Positions 8,428 through 64,000 of a DNA stretch of 64,000 bases are shown in pieces (position 1 is the first letter of the stretch; every line of letters starts with the position of its first letter). The notes below the pieces were generated by a model. It did no database searches, had not been told where the DNA came from, and saw only the letters and a program-made list of their open reading frames with translations. The position numbers and the translations under genes are program-made. Source of the DNA: Leifsonia sp. TF02-11. GTDB lineage: Bacteria; Actinomycetota; Actinomycetes; Actinomycetales; Microbacteriaceae. The stretch lies in contig NZ_JAGEKP010000010.1 in NCBI RefSeq assembly GCF_017565305.1, positions 124,001 to 188,000 on the forward strand, written 5' to 3'.

Positions 8428-8919
8428 ATGTCCCAGGAGTCTCAGGTCACCTTTCTGACCCAGGACGCGTACGACCGTCTCTCGGCCGAACTCGAGGAGC
8501 TCAGCGTCAACGGCCGTAACGAGATCGCGAAGCGCATCGAGGCGGCCCGCGAGGAGGGCGACCTCAAGGAGAACGGCGGCTACCACGCCGCCAAGGACGA
8601 GCAGGGCAAGATCGAGGCCCGCATCGTGCAGCTGACGAACCTGCTGCGCAGCGCGACCGTCGGCGAGGCGCCGGAGAGCCACGGCGTCGTGGAGCCCGGG
8701 ACCGTCATCACCGCGACCATCGCCGGCGACGAGAGCGTCTTCCTGATCGGCAACCGCGAGATCGCGGCAGGCACCGACCTGCCCGTCTACAGCGAGCAGA
8801 GCCCGCTCGGCTCCGCCATCCTCGGCCTCAAGGTCGGCGACAAGACCGAGTACACCGCGCCCAACGGCCGTCAGATCGCCGTCGAGATCGCCAAGGTCGA
8901 CACCTACGCCGGCCAGTAG
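8428..8919 (+). CDS. greA: transcription elongation factor GreA
   Basis: 163 aa. An N-terminal coiled coil (about residues 8-75) carries the tip signature around Glu43-Asp45 (AREEGDLKENGGY), which stimulates RNA cleavage by backtracked RNA polymerase. A C-terminal FKBP-like domain follows. AAGGAG about 6 nt upstream supports the ATG. The gene is monocistronic, bounded by hairpins at 8316 and 8963. Confidence 0.97.
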   Translation: MSQESQVTFLTQDAYDRLSAELEELSVNGRNEIAKRIEAAREEGDLKENGGYHAAKDEQGKIEARIVQLTNLLRSATVGEAPESHGVVEPGTVITATIAGDESVFLIGNREIAAGTDLPVYSEQSPLGSAILGLKVGDKTEYTAPNGRQIAVEIAKVDTYAGQ

Positions 8920-8962
8920 CCGGCGAGACGGCGCCCAGCGAGTACGGCCGAATTCAGCAGAG

Positions 8963-9001
8963 AACCGCCGAGTACGCAGATGATCTGCGGACTCGGCGGT
9001 T
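8963..9001. terminator. intrinsic terminator between greA and ilvA
   Basis: Outer arms AACCGCCGAGT and ACTCGGCGGTT with an inner CGCAGA/TCTGCG extension and a TGA loop, followed by TTTTT on the + strand. Convergent genes on both sides make it likely bidirectional. Confidence 0.92.
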
Positions 9002-9007
9002 TTTGCG

Positions 9008-10279
9008 TCAGTCCTCCTTGAGGACGGGGTCGTAGCCGGCCTGGCGGAGCGCGTGGATGACCTGCTCGCGGTGCTCGGTGCCGCGCGTCTCGACCGAGAG
9101 GTCGAGCTCGACCTGGCTGAGCTGCAGGCCGTTCCCGTGCCGGGTGTGCAGCACCTCCACGACGTTGGCGTTGACGCCGGCGAGGATCTCGGCGATCCTG
9201 GCGAGCTGGCCCGGGCGGTCGGGCAGCATGATCGTCAGGCGCAGGTAGCGGTCGGCGGCTGCGAGACCGTGCGCGATCACCCGCTGCATCAGCAACGGGT
9301 CGATGTTGCCTCCCGAGAGGATCGCGACGACCGAGCCGTCCGCGTCGGCCGGGACGAGTCCAGCGAGGATCGCCGCGACACCGGCCGCGCCGGCCGGCTC
9401 CACGACGAGCTTGGCCCGCTCCAGCAGCACCAGCAGCGCCCGCGCGATGTCGTCTTCGGTGACGGTGACGACCGCGTCGACGGCATCGCGCACGATCGCG
9501 AAGTTGAGGATTCCCGGCTTGCTCACGGCGATGCCGTCGGCGATGGTGGCGACGAGGCCGATCTCGGTCGGCTCCCCGGCCTCCAACGACGCGGGATAGG
9601 CGGCAGCGTTGGCCGCCTGCACGCCGATCACGCGGATGGTCCGGCCCTCGAGCGCGGCGCGCTGCTTGACGGCGCTCGCCACTCCGGAGATGAGCCCGCC
9701 TCCGCCGATCGGCACGACGATGGTCGACACGTCGGGCACCTCGTCGAGGATCTCGAGCCCGAGCGTGCCCTGCCCCGCGATCACGTCCGGGTGGTCGAAC
9801 GGCGGGATGAAGACGGCACCGGTCTCCGCCGCGAAGTCGGCGGCGGCGCGCAGCGTCTCGTCGACGATGCTGCCGCTGAGGACCACGTCGGCGCCGTATG
9901 CCCGGGTGGCCTGGAACTTGGGGATCGCGACGCCGACCGGCATGAAGATGGTGGCGTGGATGCCCAGCTCGCGCGCGGCGAAGGCGACGCCCTGCGCGTG
10001 GTTGCCGGCCGAGGCGGCGACGACGCCGCGCTCCCGCTCCTCCGCCGTCAGCTTCGAGAGCCGGTGGTACGCGCCGCGGATCTTGTACGAGCCCGTGCGC
10101 TGCAGGTTCTCGCACTTGAGGATGACCGGCGAGCCGATCACGTCGGTGAGGTACCGGGAGGTCTCGATCGGCGTCGGCTGCGCGACCAGGCCGACGATCG
10201 CGCGCGCTGCTTCGATCTCGTCGAGGCTGGGGCCGGCGAACGGAGTGCGCGTCGATTCGGTCGCGGTGTCCACCTGCAC
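9008..10279 (-). CDS. ilvA: threonine ammonia-lyase with ACT domain
   Basis: PLP-dependent threonine/serine deaminase, 423 aa, converting L-threonine to 2-oxobutanoate for isoleucine synthesis. The PLP lysine is Lys66 in GSYKIRGA, and the phosphate-binding glycine loop is VPIGGGGLISG. A single C-terminal ACT domain (about 345-423) suggests amino-acid feedback control; the double ACT-like regulatory domain of E. coli IlvA is absent. Start is GTG at 10279, with another GTG 6 nt downstream. It could be biosynthetic or catabolic; the ACT domain favours biosynthetic. Confidence 0.92.
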   Translation of the reverse strand: MQVDTATESTRTPFAGPSLDEIEAARAIVGLVAQPTPIETSRYLTDVIGSPVILKCENLQRTGSYKIRGAYHRLSKLTAEERERGVVAASAGNHAQGVAFAARELGIHATIFMPVGVAIPKFQATRAYGADVVLSGSIVDETLRAAADFAAETGAVFIPPFDHPDVIAGQGTLGLEILDEVPDVSTIVVPIGGGGLISGVASAVKQRAALEGRTIRVIGVQAANAAAYPASLEAGEPTEIGLVATIADGIAVSKPGILNFAIVRDAVDAVVTVTEDDIARALLVLLERAKLVVEPAGAAGVAAILAGLVPADADGSVVAILSGGNIDPLLMQRVIAHGLAAADRYLRLTIMLPDRPGQLARIAEILAGVNANVVEVLHTRHGNGLQLSQVELDLSVETRGTEHREQVIHALRQAGYDPVLKED

Positions 10280-16445: not shown

Positions 16446-17654
16446 GTGGTCGAACAGCTCTCCCCCGCCCTCGCGCGACGCATGGCGCTCTCCGCCCAGG
16501 GCTTCGGGAGGCCGCGCCCGGCGGTCGTGGGCACGCGTCAGCTCAACGCTCTGATCGACCGGCTCAACCTGTTGCAGATCGATTCGGTGAACGTGTTCGA
16601 GCGCAGCCACTACCTCCCGGCGTTCGCGCGCCTCGGCGCCTACGACCGCGCCCTGCTCGACCGGTTGACGTTCGACGCCCGTGGGCCGCACACCGAGTAC
16701 TGGGCGCACGAGGCCGCGTTCATGCGCAAAGACGACTGGCCGCTGTTCCGGTGGCGCATGCGCGCCTACCGCGAGCGCTACGGCACCGGCAATGCCTGGT
16801 TCGCAGCCAATGAGAGCACGCTGCAGTGGCTGCGCGCCGAGCTCGCCGACAAGGGGCCGCTGGCGGCGAGCGAGATCGAGCACGACGCCAACCGGCGCTC
16901 CGGGCCGTGGTGGGGCTGGTCGGAGGTCAAGCGTGCGCTCGAGCGGATGTTCCTGTTCGGCGAGGTCGCGATCGCCGGCCGCACGCGCTTTCAGCGCCGG
17001 TACGGTCTGGTCGACGACGTTCTGCCCGCGAGTATCCTCGACCGCACCGTCTCCGATGGCGACGCCATCCGCGAGCTGCTGCGCCGTTCTGCTGTCGCGC
17101 ACGGCATCGGCACGGCGCGCGACCTGGCCGACTACTACCGGCTGAAGGGTCCGGCGGTGCAGGTCGCCCTCCAGCAGCTCGAAGACGCGGGCGAGCTGAT
17201 CCCGGTGCAGGTGCGCGGCTGGGAGGGTCCCGGCGGGCGCCCGCTGAAGGTGTGGATGCATCGCGACGCGCGCAAGCCGCGCTCGATCGAAGCGACAGCA
17301 CTGCTGTCGCCGTTCGACCCGGTCGTCTGGTTCCGCGACCGTGCGCTGCGCATGTTCGGCTTCCACTACCGCATCGAGATCTACACGCCCGCGCCGCAGC
17401 GGGTGTACGGCTACTACTCGCTCCCGATCCTGCTCGACGACGAGCTCGTCGGCCGCATCGACCTGAAGAGCGACCGCCAGGCCGGCGTGCTGCGGGTGCA
17501 GTCGGCGTGGACCGAGTCGGGGCACTCCGGCCCGATCGCCGAACGTCTTGCCCCGCTGCTGGCGCAGACCGCGGCGTGGCAGGGTCTCGGCGAGGTGCGC
17601 GTCGCGGACGGTGCGCGCGGCGACCTCGCGCCGGTGCTCGCCGCGGAGCTCTGA
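16446..17654 (+). CDS. YcaQ/AlkX-like winged-helix DNA glycosylase (HTH_42)
   Basis: 402 aa with tandem winged-helix folds of the HTH_42 family. E. coli YcaQ (AlkX) of this family unhooks interstrand crosslinks using a Gln-x-Asp motif. The equivalent here is Gln44-Ile-Asp46 in LLQIDSVNVFERSHY. Other family blocks are present (WAHEAAFM, SPFDPVVWFRDR, RVYGYYSLPIL). GTG start. Probably a DNA-repair enzyme for bulky or crosslinking lesions. Divergent from the ABC importer and followed 66 nt later by an unknown gene. Confidence 0.85.
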   Translation: MVEQLSPALARRMALSAQGFGRPRPAVVGTRQLNALIDRLNLLQIDSVNVFERSHYLPAFARLGAYDRALLDRLTFDARGPHTEYWAHEAAFMRKDDWPLFRWRMRAYRERYGTGNAWFAANESTLQWLRAELADKGPLAASEIEHDANRRSGPWWGWSEVKRALERMFLFGEVAIAGRTRFQRRYGLVDDVLPASILDRTVSDGDAIRELLRRSAVAHGIGTARDLADYYRLKGPAVQVALQQLEDAGELIPVQVRGWEGPGGRPLKVWMHRDARKPRSIEATALLSPFDPVVWFRDRALRMFGFHYRIEIYTPAPQRVYGYYSLPILLDDELVGRIDLKSDRQAGVLRVQSAWTESGHSGPIAERLAPLLAQTAAWQGLGEVRVADGARGDLAPVLAAEL

Positions 17655-17720
17655 GCCGTCGGAGGCGCACGGGCGACGCCGCTCTCGCGGAGTCGCGGCA
17701 CGCGGGGGTAAGGTGCGGGC

Positions 17721-18149
17721 ATGAGTTCACCGCTGGAGTATCTGAACGCCGACGGGGCCGATGAGGCCGACTTCGAACAGCCCATGCGCGAGCTCTTCGC
17801 CTACCGCGACGGCGACCATTGGCGCGACGGCATCGTCACCGGCGTCAAACGCGGAACCGACGGCCGCGCGCACGTGCAGTTCGACGGCCGCATGTGGGTG
17901 ACGACCGACGACGTCCGCGAGTCGACGCACTACATCGCCGTCCTGCTGAACCCCGACTCCACGGTCTACGCCGAGGTCATCACCGGCTACCGCGACGGCG
18001 CCCCCGCCGACCTCATCCGCGACATCGACGTGGTCGACGGTTCCACCAACGCGGGCACCGAGTGGCGCCCCCTCGACGAGCAGGCCGTGGGAACGCGCGT
18101 CCGCTACCGCTACACCGGCACCGCCGAGCTGGAGGCCGCCGAGGCGTAG
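17721..18149 (+). CDS. hypothetical protein
   Basis: 142 aa, acidic, soluble, with no recognised domain. A central beta-rich part (about 30-110) resembles small SH3-like/Tudor folds only in its pattern of short strands (for example HWRDGIVTGVK and HVQFDGRMWV). ATG at 17721, with GGGGTAAGG about 12 nt upstream as a weak ribosome site. It is the last gene before the palindrome array, and its stop is 3 nt before the first copy of the GC-rich satellite repeat. Confidence 0.6.
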   Translation: MSSPLEYLNADGADEADFEQPMRELFAYRDGDHWRDGIVTGVKRGTDGRAHVQFDGRMWVTTDDVRESTHYIAVLLNPDSTVYAEVITGYRDGAPADLIRDIDVVDGSTNAGTEWRPLDEQAVGTRVRYRYTGTAELEAAEA

Positions 18150-18205
18150 CCGCGGCGCGCTCACGCGCCTCCCGCCGCGCACCTCCCGCCGCGCCAGCCC
18201 CGCAC

Positions 18206-18258
18206 ATTCGTCACGAATCCCAACATTCGTGCCACGAATCACGACATTCGTCACGAAT
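18206..18258. repeat. palindrome triplet 1
   Basis: Elements at 18206-18218 (CACG form), 18225-18239 (GCC centre) and 18246-18258 (CACG form); spacers CCCAAC and CACGAC minus edge bases. Confidence 0.95.
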
Positions 18259-18311
18259 GTCGGGGCGCTGAGGCGCCGCCGCTGCGGCGCGCTCACGCGC
18301 CAGGGGCGGAC

Positions 18312-18364
18312 ATTCGTCACGAATCCCGACATTCGTGGCACGAATCCCGACATTCGTCACGAAT
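18312..18364. repeat. palindrome triplet 2
   Basis: Elements at 18312-18324, 18331-18345 (GGC centre) and 18352-18364; both spacers read CCCGAC. Preceded 12 nt upstream by the GC motif ending at 18300. Confidence 0.95.
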
Positions 18365-18421
18365 CTCCCACTCCCCGTCGCCGCTGTCGCGGCGAGGCCA
18401 CGCCCCTTCCCGCCCCCACAG

Positions 18422-18474
18422 ATTCGTCACGAATCACGACATTCGTGCCACGAATCACGAGATTCGTGACGAAT
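18422..18474. repeat. palindrome triplet 3
   Basis: Elements at 18422-18434, 18441-18455 (GCC centre) and 18462-18474 (GACG form). The segment before it (18365-18421) is a diverged form of the inter-triplet GC hairpin. Confidence 0.95.
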
Positions 18475-18529
18475 ATCGGGAGGCTGAGGCGGCAACGGCT
18501 GCGGCGCGCTCACGCGCGAGGGCGCGGAC

Positions 18530-18582
18530 ATTCGTCACGAATCTCGACATTCGTGGCACGAATCGCGAGATTCGTGACGAAT
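18530..18582. repeat. palindrome triplet 4
   Basis: Elements at 18530-18542, 18549-18563 (GGC centre) and 18570-18582 (GACG form). It ends 42 nt from the htpX stop. Confidence 0.95.
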
Positions 18583-18624
18583 GTCGCGTTGCGGCGGCGC
18601 CGCGGCGGCGCCGGGGCGCGAGCG

Positions 18625-19515
18625 TCAGAAGGTGGAGCCCATTTTCTCGAGGCGGTCGACGCGCTCGGGGATGGGCGGGTGGGTCGAGAAGAGGCGGCTC
18701 ATGAGGCTGGGCTTGAGCGGCTCGGCGATCCAGAGGTGCGCCATGCTGCTGTTCTGGCGGCGCATGGGCTGCGCGTAGTCCTGCAGCTTGAGGAGGGCGC
18801 TCGCCAGAGCGTCGGGATGACGCGTGGTCATCGCTCCCGTTGCGTCGGCGAGATACTCGCGCTGGCGGGAGACGGCGAGCTGCACGAGTGTCGCGACCAG
18901 CGGGGCGATGATCGCTGCGATGAGGCCCGCGATCAGAACGATCGGGTTGCCGCCGCCGCCGTTGTTGTTGTTGCGGTTGTTGCCGCCGAAGAACGCCATG
19001 CGCAGGAAGATGTCGGCGATCAGCCCGATCGCGACCGTGAGGCCGAAGACGATCATCGAGAGCCGGATGTCGTAGTTGCGCACGTGACCGAGCTCGTGCG
19101 CCATCACTCCCTCGAGCTCGGCGTCGTTCATGATGTCGAGGAGACCCGTCGTCGCGGCGACGGACGCGTGCTGCGGGTCACGTCCGGTCGCGAACGCGTT
19201 GGGGGCGGGGTCGTTGATGATGTAGACCGCCGGCATCGGCGTTCCGGTCGTGATCGAGAGGTTCTCGACGACGTTCCAGAGTCGCGGGTTGTCGGCCTTG
19301 GTGATCTGCACGGCGCCGGACATGCTGAGCGCCTGGCTGGAGGCCATGAAGTACTGGAACACGGCGTACACGATCGCGCCGATCCCGACCCAGGCCAGGA
19401 TCGCCCAGCTGTGGTAGATGACCGAGAACAGCCAGCCGAGCGCACCGATGAGAACCAGGAACAGCAGGATGATGAAGACGGTGTTGCGCTTGTTCCTGGC
19501 GATAGCCCTGTACAT
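18625..19515 (-). CDS. htpX: M48B (HtpX-type) membrane zinc metalloprotease
   Basis: 296-aa membrane protease for quality control of membrane proteins. Two N-terminal helices (about 13-30 and 38-56) precede the zinc motif HELGH at 140-144, with the third ligand Glu220 in REYLAD. Two further helices flank an Asn/Gly-rich loop (179-190). Length is typical of HtpX. lemA lies 7 nt upstream on the same strand, a common lemA-htpX pairing. The gene ends toward the palindrome array. Confidence 0.95.
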   Translation of the reverse strand: MYRAIARNKRNTVFIILLFLVLIGALGWLFSVIYHSWAILAWVGIGAIVYAVFQYFMASSQALSMSGAVQITKADNPRLWNVVENLSITTGTPMPAVYIINDPAPNAFATGRDPQHASVAATTGLLDIMNDAELEGVMAHELGHVRNYDIRLSMIVFGLTVAIGLIADIFLRMAFFGGNNRNNNNGGGGNPIVLIAGLIAAIIAPLVATLVQLAVSRQREYLADATGAMTTRHPDALASALLKLQDYAQPMRRQNSSMAHLWIAEPLKPSLMSRLFSTHPPIPERVDRLEKMGSTF

Positions 19516-19522
19516 CGACGAC

Positions 19523-20089
19523 CTAGAACTGCACGCGCGGCGGCTCTGCGATCGCCGCCAGGTTGTCGACCTCGAAGAACTCGCGCTCGCTGAAGCCCAG
19601 TCGGCGGGCGAACAGGTTGTTCGGGAAGACCTTGATCTTGGTGTTGAACTCGCGCACGCCGCCGTTGTAGAACCGGCGGGAGGCCTGGATCTTGTCTTCC
19701 GTGTCGACCAGGTCGGCCTGCAGCCGCAGGAAGTTCTGGCTCGCCTGCAGCTGCGGGTACGCCTCGGCCACGGCGAAGATGCTCTTCAGGGCCGTCTGCA
19801 TGTGCCCTTCGGCCACGGACGCCTCACCCGGCGTCTGCGCCGTCAGCGTCTCGGCGCGTGCCTTGGTCACGGACTCGAAGACCCCGCGCTCGTGCGCGGC
19901 GTAGCCCTTGACCGTCTCGATCAGGTTGGGGATGAGGTCGGCACGGCGCTTGAGCTGCACCGTGATGTCGCTCCACGCCTCGTCGACCCGGACCTTCAGG
20001 GTGACCAGCGAGTTGTATGTGGCCCAGAAGTAGATTCCGATGATCGCGACGAGCACGACGACGATGATGACCGGAATGAGCCATTCCAT
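19523..20089 (-). CDS. lemA: LemA family protein
   Basis: 188 aa. One N-terminal membrane helix (about 4-24) is followed by a helical-bundle domain with the family segments WATYNSLVTLKVRVDEAWSDI and RFYNGGVREFNTKIKVFPNN. Function is not well defined; it is often linked to M48 proteases, as here. ATG at 20089 has AGGAG 9 nt upstream on the minus strand. It starts the lemA-htpX operon. Confidence 0.93.
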   Translation of the reverse strand: MEWLIPVIIVVVLVAIIGIYFWATYNSLVTLKVRVDEAWSDITVQLKRRADLIPNLIETVKGYAAHERGVFESVTKARAETLTAQTPGEASVAEGHMQTALKSIFAVAEAYPQLQASQNFLRLQADLVDTEDKIQASRRFYNGGVREFNTKIKVFPNNLFARRLGFSEREFFEVDNLAAIAEPPRVQF

Positions 20090-21724: not shown

Positions 21725-22455
21725 ACGCCGCCCGCACCCTCGCCACGACCGCGCGCGTCCTCACGCAGATCCGGCACGACCCGCGCACGATCGGCCTGTT
21801 GGTGGTCGTCCCGAGCCTCCTGATCGGACTGGTCGCCTGGATCTTCACGGACACCGACGTCTTCGCCACGATCGGCCCGGCGATGCTGGCACTCTTCCCG
21901 TTCGTCGTCATGTTCCTGGTGACGAGCATCACCACACTCCGCGAACGGCGCACCGGCACCTTGGAGCGCCTGCTGTCGATGCCGCTCGGCAAAGGCGACT
22001 TCATCCTCGGCTACACGCTGGCGTTCGGGCTGCTCGCCGTGATCCAGTCGCTGGTCGCCTCGGGCTACGCGATCTGGGTGTGCGGGCTGACGATCAAGGG
22101 CGACGCGTGGCTTCTGGTCGCTGTGGCCGTGACCGACGCCGTGCTCGGCAGCACGCTGGGGCTGTTCGCGAGCGCCTTCGCGCGCACCGAGTTCCAGGTG
22201 GTGCAGTTCATGCCGGCGATCGTGTTCCCGCAGATCCTGCTCGGCGGCATCTTCCTCCCCCGCGACCAGCTCCCCGCCGGGCTCAAGGAGATCAGCGACT
22301 GGCTGCCGCTGTCGCACGCGGTCGACGCCCTCAACGCCGTCGCGACGAATTCGCACGACGCCGCCTACGTGGGAGGCCAGCTCCTGATCATCGGCGCGTT
22401 CGCCGTGGGTGCCGTCGTCGTCGGTGCCCTCACCCTCCAGCGCCGCACCTCTTAG
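21721..22455 (+). CDS. ABC-2 type exporter permease
   Basis: 244 aa with six hydrophobic helices and the ABC-2 membrane signature region (EFQVVQFMPAIVFPQILLGG then PLSHAVDALNAV). It dimerises with the ATPase encoded by the overlapping upstream gene. It is the last gene of the tetR-ATPase-permease unit and is followed by a long inverted repeat. Confidence 0.92.
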   Translation: MNAARTLATTARVLTQIRHDPRTIGLLVVVPSLLIGLVAWIFTDTDVFATIGPAMLALFPFVVMFLVTSITTLRERRTGTLERLLSMPLGKGDFILGYTLAFGLLAVIQSLVASGYAIWVCGLTIKGDAWLLVAVAVTDAVLGSTLGLFASAFARTEFQVVQFMPAIVFPQILLGGIFLPRDQLPAGLKEISDWLPLSHAVDALNAVATNSHDAAYVGGQLLIIGAFAVGAVVVGALTLQRRTS

Positions 22456-22458
22456 CAG

Positions 22459-22532
22459 CCAGCCATCGGTTCCTCACTTCCTCCCCCTCCAGACCGGTGT
22501 GTCGCGGGAGGAAGTGAGGAATCGATGGCTGG
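22459..22532. repeat. 27-bp-arm inverted repeat at a convergent junction
   Basis: Arms at 22459-22485 and 22506-22532 differ at a single position and enclose a 20-nt loop. They lie between the ABC-2 permease and the FAD oxidase, which converge. There is no T tract. Likely a bidirectional terminator, though longer than usual. Confidence 0.85.
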
Positions 22533-22546
22533 GCGACGGGAGGGCG

Positions 22547-23875
22547 TCAGGGGCCGAGGACGCGGCGGAGGTACGCGTTCTCGAAGCGGCGGTCGGGATC
22601 GAGGCGGTCGCGGACGGCGAGGAAGTCGTCGAAGCGCGGGTACGTCTCGCGCAGCGACTCCGCGTCGCGGTAGTGCATCTTGCCCCAGTGCGGCCGGCCG
22701 TCGTGGGCCGCCATGATCTCCTCCACCGCGGTGAAGTACTCGGTCGGGTCCTCCCGGTAGTACCTGTGCACCGCGATGTACCCGGTCTCGCGCCCGTACG
22801 CCGTCGACAGCCAGTTGTCGTCGGCCGCCGCCGATCGCACCTCGATGGGGAACGAGATGCGCCAGCCGCGGCGCTCGATGAGCGCCTTCACCTCGGCGAG
22901 CGCCTCGGGCACCGCCTCCCGAGGGATCGCGTACTCCATCTCCCGGAAGCGCACCGTCCGGTTCGTCACGAACACGCGCGGCGAGTGGTCGGTGAAATCG
23001 CGGTTCCCGGTGAGGCGTTGCGCGAGACGGCTGAAGGGCGGGATGATCGCCGGCGTCAGCGTGCCCACGGCGCACACGCCCCGGTACACGCCGTTGGCGA
23101 GAAGCTCGTCGTCGACCCAACGGCCGGCGGCCGACAGCGGAGCACGCTGTTCGGTGAGCGGCAGCCGGGTGTTCGTCTTGGTGAGCCCGGTCTCGGTGTG
23201 CGGGAACCAGTAGAACTCGAAGTGATCCTCCGCCGCCGAGCGTTCCAGGTAGCTGTCGAGCACCTGCCGCAGCGGCTCCGGTCGCTCGACCGCCTTCAGC
23301 AGGTAGCCGGGAACGCACTGCAGCGTGATGTCCACGAGCACGCCGAGCGCACCGAGGCCGAGGCGCACGGCGGGCAGCAGCTCGGGGTTCTCGTCCTCGC
23401 TGACCGTCAGCAGCTCTCCGGAGCCGGTCACGAGCGTCACTGCGACGATCTGCGTGGCGAGCCCGCCGAACGCGCCCCCGGTGCCGTGCGTGCCCGTGGA
23501 GGTCGCACCCGCGATGGTCTGCCGGTCGATGTCTCCCATGTTCTGCAGTGCCAGGCCGTACGGGCGCAGCAGCCGCGGCAGCTGATGGAGGTGCGTGCCC
23601 GCTGCGAGGCGCACCCGGCTGCGCTCGAGGTCCACGTCGAGGACGCCGCTGACGTCGGCGAGGTCGAGCAGCACTCCCGGGGCCACCGCGATGCCGGTGA
23701 AGCTGTGGCCGGCACCGACCGCCTTGACCCGCATCCCCTGCTTCGCCGCTGCGGCGACCGCGCGCTGCACGGCCTCGGCGTCGCGCGGGCGTTCGACGCG
23801 CTGCGGCCGGACGGACTCGCTCCGGCCCCAGTTGTGCCAGACGCCGTTGCGCCAGACCGCGCCGGTCGCCGTCAC
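22547..23875 (-). CDS. FAD-linked aldonolactone/alditol oxidase family
   Basis: 442 aa: an N-terminal VAO-type FAD domain with the His expected to carry FAD covalently in VGAGHSFTGIA (about residue 57), and a C-terminal ALO domain with HWGKMHY near 385. The family includes gulonolactone, arabinonolactone and alditol oxidases, producing H2O2 or feeding a carrier. GTG start overlaps the upstream gene by 4 nt (GTGA). Last gene of a tetR-MFS-aldolase-oxidase operon; exact substrate unknown. Confidence 0.88.
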   Translation of the reverse strand: MTATGAVWRNGVWHNWGRSESVRPQRVERPRDAEAVQRAVAAAAKQGMRVKAVGAGHSFTGIAVAPGVLLDLADVSGVLDVDLERSRVRLAAGTHLHQLPRLLRPYGLALQNMGDIDRQTIAGATSTGTHGTGGAFGGLATQIVAVTLVTGSGELLTVSEDENPELLPAVRLGLGALGVLVDITLQCVPGYLLKAVERPEPLRQVLDSYLERSAAEDHFEFYWFPHTETGLTKTNTRLPLTEQRAPLSAAGRWVDDELLANGVYRGVCAVGTLTPAIIPPFSRLAQRLTGNRDFTDHSPRVFVTNRTVRFREMEYAIPREAVPEALAEVKALIERRGWRISFPIEVRSAAADDNWLSTAYGRETGYIAVHRYYREDPTEYFTAVEEIMAAHDGRPHWGKMHYRDAESLRETYPRFDDFLAVRDRLDPDRRFENAYLRRVLGP

Positions 23876-62897: not shown

Positions 62898-63422
62898 ATG
62901 AGCACGTTTCCGCCGACGGGACCGGAGCCGGGCCCGGTCTTCCCCGCTCCCCAGGGAGGGGATCCGGCCCAGCAGTGGACGCCCGGCCCTGCGATGTACT
63001 CCGTCGCTCCCCCTCCGCCTTACTACTCCGCTCCGCCGGCTCCGCCGCGGCCGCGCACGCTCGGAGTGGCCTCCATGGTGATCGCCCTCTCGGTGTTCGT
63101 GCTGTCGGTCGCGGCGTCCGTCGTCGTCGGGATGAGCGCGGGTCCGCTCGCGTCCCGGACGGCGACGTCCTTCAGTTTCAACACCTCCGATCTCACCCCC
63201 GACCAGGCCGCGGCGTTCGCGCCCATCGGTCTGCTGATGGGCGCGCAGATCCTCCTCGGCACGATCTTCGGCATCACCGCGCTCGTCCTGGGGATCATCG
63301 CCGCGGCGACCAAGCGCGGACGCGCTTTCGGCATCGTCGGGATCGCCGTCGCTGCCGCGGCGCCGATCGTGTCGTTCCTGGTCTACACGGCGGCGCTGGG
63401 CCTGACCCTCCCGCCCGCCTGA
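62898..63422 (+). CDS. DUF4190-like two-helix membrane protein
   Basis: 174 aa: a Pro/Tyr-rich N-terminus (PPPPYYSAPPAPPRP) of about 50 residues, two hydrophobic helices (about 53-80 and 105-140) and a third near 150-170. DUF4190-type proteins are often in envelope or stress contexts. Monocistronic; ends in the long hairpin at 63433. Confidence 0.75.
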   Translation: MSTFPPTGPEPGPVFPAPQGGDPAQQWTPGPAMYSVAPPPPYYSAPPAPPRPRTLGVASMVIALSVFVLSVAASVVVGMSAGPLASRTATSFSFNTSDLTPDQAAAFAPIGLLMGAQILLGTIFGITALVLGIIAAATKRGRAFGIVGIAVAAAAPIVSFLVYTAALGLTLPPA

Positions 63423-63432
63423 TCGAACTGAT

Positions 63433-63489
63433 CGAGGGGCACGTCGTTGTCCCTTTCGCGCGCCGAAAGGGACAACGACGTGCCCCTCG
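63433..63489. repeat. 26-bp-arm perfect hairpin at a convergent junction
   Basis: Perfect arms 63433-63458 and 63464-63489 around a 5-nt loop, between the DUF4190 gene and pth. It shares CGAGGGGCACG with the repeat at 12238. Confidence 0.88.
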
Positions 63490-63506
63490 GCAGTTGATTG
63501 CGGGCG

Positions 63507-64000
63507 TCAGCGCTCGGTGTGGAAGCGGTTCTGGGCGGCGGTGAGACCGTCGGTCGCGATCTGCTCGACCGCGTCGGCCGCATCCGCGACCAGGATCGGC
63601 AGGGTCTTGCGCTCCGCCGAGCTGAAGCCGGCGAGGACGTGGTCGGCCGCGGCGCGTGAACCGGGAGGCCGGCCGACGCCGACGCGCACCCGCGTGAAGT
63701 CGCCGGTGCCGGTCGCGGCGATCACGTCGCGTACGCCGTTGTGCCCGCCGTGGCCTCCGCCGAACTTGAGCTTGAGGGTGTCGAACGGGATGTCCAGCTC
63801 GTCCTGCACGACGATCAGCCGCGACGGGTCGAGCGAATAGAACCGGAGCAGCTGCGACACCGGGCCGCCCGACACGTTCATATACGTGTTCGGCTTGGCC
63901 AGGACGAACCGCGGCCCGCCGGGGGCGAGACGCCCCTCGGCGACCGTGGCGTTCGTCTTATGGGTCTTGAAGGTGAGCCGGCCGCGCGAGGCGAGCTCGT
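63507..64000 (-). CDS. pth: peptidyl-tRNA hydrolase, 5' end outside the window
   Basis: Partial gene. At least 163 codons are visible; the start lies beyond the right end. Motifs LAKPNTYMNVSG, QDELDIP (with the catalytic-site Asp) and GGGHGGHNGVRDV identify Pth1, which recycles peptidyl-tRNA. In Mtb it is Rv1014c, consistent with the mfd-pth neighbourhood. Confidence 0.95.
   Translation of the reverse strand, partial: ELASRGRLTFKTHKTNATVAEGRLAPGGPRFVLAKPNTYMNVSGGPVSQLLRFYSLDPSRLIVVQDELDIPFDTLKLKFGGGHGGHNGVRDVIAATGTGDFTRVRVGVGRPPGSRAAADHVLAGFSSAERKTLPILVADAADAVEQIATDGLTAAQNRFHTER

Follow-up and report, generated by a model that had tools for sequence, protein, structure and literature searches.

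A phased array of palindromes between two convergent genes

The window, a 64,000-nucleotide stretch of the Leifsonia sp. TF02-11 genome (G000:C2:124001-188000), contains two convergent genes whose stop codons lie at 18149 and 18625. The gap between them is filled by an array of twelve palindromes (18206 to 18582), listed from the sequence as eight 13-mers and four 15-mers in four 13-15-13 triplets:

17721 to 18149, plus strand: left neighbour gene, 142 aa, without Pfam family, 3' end towards the array
18206 to 18258, no strand: triplet 1, 13-mer 18206-18218, 15-mer (GCC) 18225-18239, 13-mer 18246-18258
18259 to 18311, no strand: linker 1-2, 84% identical to linker 3-4, contains the GC motif at 18284-18300
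18312 to 18364, no strand: triplet 2, 13-mer 18312-18324, 15-mer (GGC) 18331-18345, 13-mer 18352-18364
18422 to 18474, no strand: triplet 3, 13-mer 18422-18434, 15-mer (GCC) 18441-18455, 13-mer 18462-18474
18475 to 18529, no strand: linker 3-4, duplicated copy, contains the GC motif at 18501-18517
18530 to 18582, no strand: triplet 4, 13-mer 18530-18542, 15-mer (GGC) 18549-18563, 13-mer 18570-18582
18625 to 19515, minus strand: right neighbour gene, 296 aa, Peptidase_M48 (HtpX-like), 3' end towards the array, convergent

The triplets are centred at 18212/18232/18252, 18318/18338/18358, 18428/18448/18468 and 18536/18556/18576, so that all eight inner distances equal 20 bp. The GC-rich motif GCGGCGCGCTCACGCGC occurs three times (18152, 18284 and 18501). 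An earlier note on this DNA had described these palindromes, their spacing, the repeated motif and the convergent location, and a recount reproduces each of them exactly. It had also proposed a two-triplet unit duplicated once. Triplets 1 and 3 share the GCC form of the 15-mer with starts 216 bp apart, triplets 2 and 4 the GGC form with starts 218 bp apart, and the two-triplet units are 89% identical. Since linkers 1-2 and 3-4 are 84% identical while linker 2-3 shows 46-52% identity to either, the nested duplication is real. Allowing up to two mismatches, the 13-mer has nine matches in the window, eight of them in the array, against a mean of 0.78 and a maximum of 3 in 100 shuffles. Rfam 15 gives no match at gathering score in window positions 17000-20000.

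A 53-bp element found throughout much of Leifsonia

The motif occurs throughout the genome (G000) and keeps its 20-bp phasing, and so passes the refuting test set in the earlier note: the exact 13-mer occurs 227 times and its reversed control not once. The 13-mer and the GCC 15-mer are found in phase at 73 places. In the stretches fetched to cover all of these, with neighbour pairs scored at up to two mismatches per site, every pair keeps the 20-bp distance (13 to 15, 102/102; 15 to 13, 103/103). The element letters are S-ATTCGT-S-ACGAAT-S, the 6-bp spacers are loosely SYCGRS, and from about 3 bp outwards the flanking sequence is peculiar to each locus. Core mismatches are rare: of the 102 triplets that carry no more than five mismatches and lie 40 bp or more inside their stretch, 66 are free of mismatches, 32 show one and 4 show two or more. 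Triplets within a locus recur with a linker peculiar to that locus (e.g. four linkers of 66 bp, three of 88 bp), which indicates that arrays grow by local duplication. Contigs C1, C5, C12, C24 and C27 of this genome, which is assembled in 50 contigs, start in or near such arrays; further copies may therefore be hidden by assembly breaks.

Among 84,980 species genomes the exact triplet was found in 41 stretches, a number from which the window's own records may be missing, and all 41 are labelled Leifsonia. Carriers are L. shinshuensis DP-L11, Leifsonia sp. Leaf336 and an uncultured Leifsonia MAG. Exact 13+15 pairs are confined to 4 of 28 Leifsonia genomes. A more general form, two ATTCG-N3-CGAAT sites 40 bp apart, is present in 22 of the 28, with 3 to 326 pairs per genome. 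The total is 1139 pairs at 40 bp versus 222 at the remaining 30 distances in the 25-55 bp range (132 over the 15 distances of 25-39 bp and 90 over the 15 of 41-55 bp). These off-distance pairs occur mostly in pair-rich genomes and, where compared, connect neighbouring units; nine genomes (G001, G002, G011, G013, G016, G019, G021, G023 and G024) together have 216 pairs at 40 bp and none at the 30 other distances. Across 398 genomes of the family (85 genera) the 40-bp pair was seen in Leifsonia only, in 9 of the 10 Leifsonia sampled. The richest genome, with 326 pairs, is G022 (L238, L224); the 13-mers of L238 form an unbroken 40-bp tandem of seven.

The viral contigs searched contain no element, and phages and plasmids gave one best match each, too weak to be credited (E 0.2 and 0.1). 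An intact element is missing from 6 of the 28 Leifsonia genomes (G003, G004, G005, G012, G014 and G027). One of these, G005, has no intact 40-bp pair and retains relics at L254, L258 and L263 (2, 1 and 3 mismatches; 41, 40 and 41 bp), as would fit the loss of a trans-acting partner.

The middle site and helical geometry

The 53-bp unit consists of two outer palindromes S-ATTCG-N3-CGAAT-S 40 bp apart and a middle site half-way between them. In the clade of the TF02-11 genome the middle site is the 15-mer ATTCGTGNCACGAAT; in other species it is marked mainly by A/T triplets that take up the corresponding two places. Among 60 elements compared, 55 have no 15-mer, and these 55 are GC-rich between the outer sites except at positions 20-22 and 32-34 (A/T 0.78 to 0.87), which coincide with the ATT and AAT of the 15-mer. 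Further A/T-rich spacer letters occur at positions 15 (0.85) and 39 (0.69). In the 33 elements that remain after removal of near-duplicates, the blocks 20-22 and 32-34 have A or T in 155 of their 198 cells, and the rest of the region that separates the outer sites, positions 15 and 39 included, in 110 of 693 cells; no shuffle out of 2000 gave more than 78. Of the 10 copies listed for G018, 7 carry an exact 13-mer of the same form as their middle site. The clades thus have the geometry in common and vary in the letters of the middle site.

Along the unit, A/T triplets recur about once in each turn of the helix, with six centres at 2, 12, 21, 33, 42 and 52. A distance of 20 bp falls just short of two turns; with 10.5 bp to the turn, the outer sites, 40 bp apart, are offset by about 70 degrees, which weighs against the platform explanation given below.

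Fixed core, drifting spacers

Clusters at orthologous positions were compared in 23 pairs in which both neighbours are conserved, some clusters or loci entering more than one pair. Over all pairs, 2 of 874 core positions and 57 of 276 spacer positions differ; the core figure is partly ascertained, since exact 13+15 matches served to locate the loci and the best pair of triplets was taken from each. The third 13-mer, which the search does not fix, was for this reason checked separately: beside an exact 13+15 pair it is perfect in 67 of 73 cases in the TF02-11 genome and in 46 of 57 in relatives, the remainder having one mismatch, while the spacer adjoining it deviates by 34% from its own consensus (TF02-11 genome). 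Triplet number varies freely between orthologous loci (e.g. 5 and 9, 3 and 1). That positions are old, the core fixed and the spacers drifting argues that the letters of every site are under selection. The array thus belongs to a real, selected, genus-specific phased element, and of the two causes offered in the earlier note for the identity of the copies, selection or recent amplification, both are seen, the former in core versus spacer and the latter in the local growth of arrays.

Position relative to genes

A total of 86 clusters (43 from the TF02-11 genome, 43 from three relatives) was placed relative to genes; 5 lie at contig ends. The 81 with both neighbours comprise 49 between convergent genes, 28 between tandem genes, 2 between divergent genes and 2 inside a called gene, the divergent two being one orthologous pair and the inside-gene two another (gene call unchecked). 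Array-free junctions of the same stretches number 53 convergent, 338 tandem and 93 divergent, a comparison whose slightly different junction rule gives 51 convergent junctions with arrays. Elements lie at a median of 21 bp from 3' ends (n=130) and 85 bp from 5' ends (n=32). Five genes (L086, L089, L100, L123 and L148) even stop on a TGA inside a 13-mer, which gives them a C-terminal Ser.

This placement bears on one alternative, a chromosome-organising site that ended up in intergenic gene ends. The Leifsonia 13-mers may resemble known sites of this kind (matS and Noc), and a SlmA-like site would be comparable. The many dispersed 13-bp palindromes agree with it, as does their absence from viral contigs and the want of a credible phage or plasmid match. 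However, the 3'-end bias is strong and the sites listed for G001 are spread over a 2.06-Mb contig (by eye), so that we regard this explanation as very improbable.

At the htpX junction, shown for 27 genomes, the TF02-11 genome has four triplets, G008 and G023 have one each, and G001, G006 and G007 have a related 40-bp form. The gap is at most 16 bp and element-free in G011, G015, G018, G020 and G026; the element is therefore dispensable there. By eye, the junction (L151-L177) carries inverted-repeat elements that differ by species, the number of tandem copies ranging from none to six. On the time scale of species, this junction gains and loses such elements.

Other inverted repeats share this kind of position. 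A second repeated element of convergent junctions, with CCGCCGAGTACGC arms, is found at window positions 8919-9008 and in stretches of G006, G020 and G025; it is often in three copies (by eye) and common to several Leifsonia species. Long inverted repeats (TCCTCACTTCCTCCC... and GAGGGGCACGTCGTTGTCCC...) occupy the convergent gaps at 22455-22547 and 63422-63507 of the window. Other species have inverted-repeat families of their own, ATCGAGCCCGGAGTT in G012 and GGGTCGCAACACGCCG and CTCCTGAGTTTTTCG in G010/G021 (by eye).

Protein-read DNA or RNA hairpin

Because each site is palindromic, a triplet can fold site 1 on site 3. Predicted RNA folding is correspondingly strong (mean -25 kcal/mol, z -4.8, in 36/36 non-redundant triplets and on both strands) and, taken with the placement directly behind stop codons, it is what would be expected of an RNA hairpin at mRNA 3' ends, a terminator without U-tract or a stabiliser, acting on both strands between convergent genes. 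The inverted doublet indeed folds as a hairpin, but its variable positions are not kept complementary in triplets. At the ten facing position pairs of 169 unique triplets, complementarity is below expectation in 10/10 (e.g. 19/35, 51 versus 80 expected), and the free S letters track the local GC skew (rho 0.47, n=171). Under-complementary S letters that follow the skew argue for reading as DNA over RNA pairing. Active avoidance of hairpins was considered as the cause of the low complementarity and rejected, since local GC skew explains it at least in part. Only 4 of the 102 triplets have two or more core mismatches, which leaves almost no case of compensatory exchange. The elements of other species are more equivocal: among 20 pairs tested (n=33), five (17/37, 20/34, 22/32, 25/29 and 0/54) are over-complementary at P<0.05, in favour of a hairpin, and three (7/47, 6/8 and 46/48) are complementary less often than expected.

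The combined terminator suggested in the earlier note is not established: a TTTT lies within 15 nt of just 3 of 100 triplets. With a home-made detector, T-run terminators were found at 2 of 56 convergent junctions with an element versus 8 of 87 without (p=0.32); this shows no difference, and mutual exclusivity of element and terminator was dropped. Double-stranded DNA read by a protein is therefore favoured, the RNA hairpin being an improbable but serious alternative. The scarcity of T-run terminators at the convergent junctions examined by this detector (10/143) bears on how high-GC bacteria separate convergent genes.

Partner protein, transposase and mobility

A RAYT-like transposase (Y1_Tnp, PF01797), whose presence the earlier note had proposed to check, was found in 0 of 28 Leifsonia genomes, while the control search was positive in 5 of 14 genomes. 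The flanks of the 102 triplets have no conserved GTAG/CGTC end tag and show only a weak CGAS/STCG. These results weigh on a second alternative, in which the copies are small mobile repeats of the REP/REPIN kind, mobilised by a transposase in trans and tolerated at 3' ends, where insertions are least harmful. The placement and the tandem clusters with flanking DNA recall what parts of PMC3733652 describe for REPs, and according to sections of PMC3116915 REPIN spacers are likewise less conserved than the REPs themselves. The 53-bp unit is also hairpin-capable, copy number differs between orthologous loci, and the stop codon of five genes is supplied by the element. However, besides the lack of PF01797 and of the end tag, the 23 orthologous locus pairs point to old, stable positions, and dead copies should lose core and spacer equally. 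Mobile repeats are therefore a rather unlikely explanation; if they were the right one, the element would bear on how REP-like families spread and persist without the transposase known from them.

AsnC/Lrp (PF01037) was the sole regulator family tried as a partner. It is present in all 28 genomes, with 1-9 raw matches in the six non-carriers and 7-15 in carriers. One AsnC gene (87-100% identical across the genomes compared) has 13-mers 3' of it in G000, G006, G007, G020, G022 and G023 and none in G008, G011, G012, G014 and G025. This makes 6 of 11 positive (L280, L287/L301, L297, L298, L299 and L300), a frequency biased by the lead having been picked after it was noticed. The gene also occurs in the non-carriers G012 and G014, so it is taken as a frequent host junction and was rejected as the partner. 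Autoregulation was rejected as well: triplets occur in a divergent promoter just once (G000 C6:2814, with an ortholog in G008), and the flanking genes, by eye a YCII-like/ECF-sigma pair on one side and a release-factor-like gene on the other, include no obvious regulator. Nor did a single ancestral operator emerge when the six non-carriers and G011 were searched, which gave 0-4 13-mers per non-carrier and the pair relics of G005.

A candidate boundary at gene 3' ends

The array is a 53-bp 3'-end element, specific to Leifsonia, repeated four times in tandem. Our preferred explanation, to which we give slightly less than an even chance, is that this REP-like element serves as a three-site, one-face protein platform and probable transcription boundary. 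A putative sequence-specific DNA-binding protein would contact all three sites, the two outer palindromes and the middle one, from one face of the helix and would bend or wrap about 53 bp. The resulting complex would probably act as a boundary at gene 3' ends that stops or insulates polymerases, and perhaps supercoils, arriving from either side. The units lie directly behind stop codons, mostly between convergent genes, and have multiplied locally with their locus-specific flank. We infer both the protein and its function from the pattern of conservation and placement.

The wider proposal, a genus-specific class of protein-read 3'-end boundaries of about 53 bp, with palindromes exactly 40 bp apart and a phased middle, whose putative binding protein would maintain them at scores of gene ends and block or insulate transcription from both sides, is doubtful. 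If true, it would constitute a bacterial counterpart of roadblock termination with REP-like spread in the absence of a RAYT. The exact geometry, the fixed letters and the loss in some lineages provide both a bait for the protein and a natural experiment on the role.

The interpretation given in the earlier note is thus partly supported. Phased protein binding gains indirect support from the retained phasing, though the cognate protein was not found; the REP/BIME likeness stands for position and local amplification and fails for the RAYT-like transposase and the end tag.

Comparison with known systems

No description of the element was found in openly licensed literature. Bidirectional terminators between convergent genes have the same position and two-fold symmetry as the Leifsonia element; they differ from it in that the latter lacks a T-run and has letters that are fixed rather than pairing.

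REP and BIME sequences, as presented in portions of PMC3733652 and PMC8266576, are high-copy intergenic palindromes, single or clustered and hairpin-capable, with REPs placed between convergent or tandem genes (PMC3733652). The Leifsonia element resembles them in being high-copy, intergenic, located between convergent or same-strand genes, clustered and able to form hairpins. However, it has neither the GTAG/CGTC tag nor a RAYT (28 genomes), and it consists of three palindromes in fixed 20-bp phase with a fixed core and drifting spacers. The tag and the RAYT are two defining features of REPs and both failed; the element is therefore not filed as a REP. The main text of PMC3733652 contains no words beginning with Actinobacter or Leifsonia.

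REPINs, in the parts of PMC3116915 that concern their structure, have two palindromic ends, a variable middle and a genome-wide population, and the Leifsonia element shares all three. It differs by one predominant spacing (40 bp, 22 genomes) with a phased middle site, by orthologous copies that stay in place and by the lack of a RAYT.

According to an excerpt of PMC2995911, Lrp-type proteins bind along one DNA face at sites separated by two or three helical turns, and wrap the DNA. The aligned palindromic sites of the Leifsonia element, with two-turn spacing on one face (20 bp in the 102 and 103 neighbour pairs given above), are similar to Lrp/AsnC operators. Unlike these, the element is present in scores of copies at gene 3' ends, and no Lrp protein is tied to the site. 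In position and copy number the element thus comes closest to REP/BIME/REPIN, and in geometry to Lrp-type operators.
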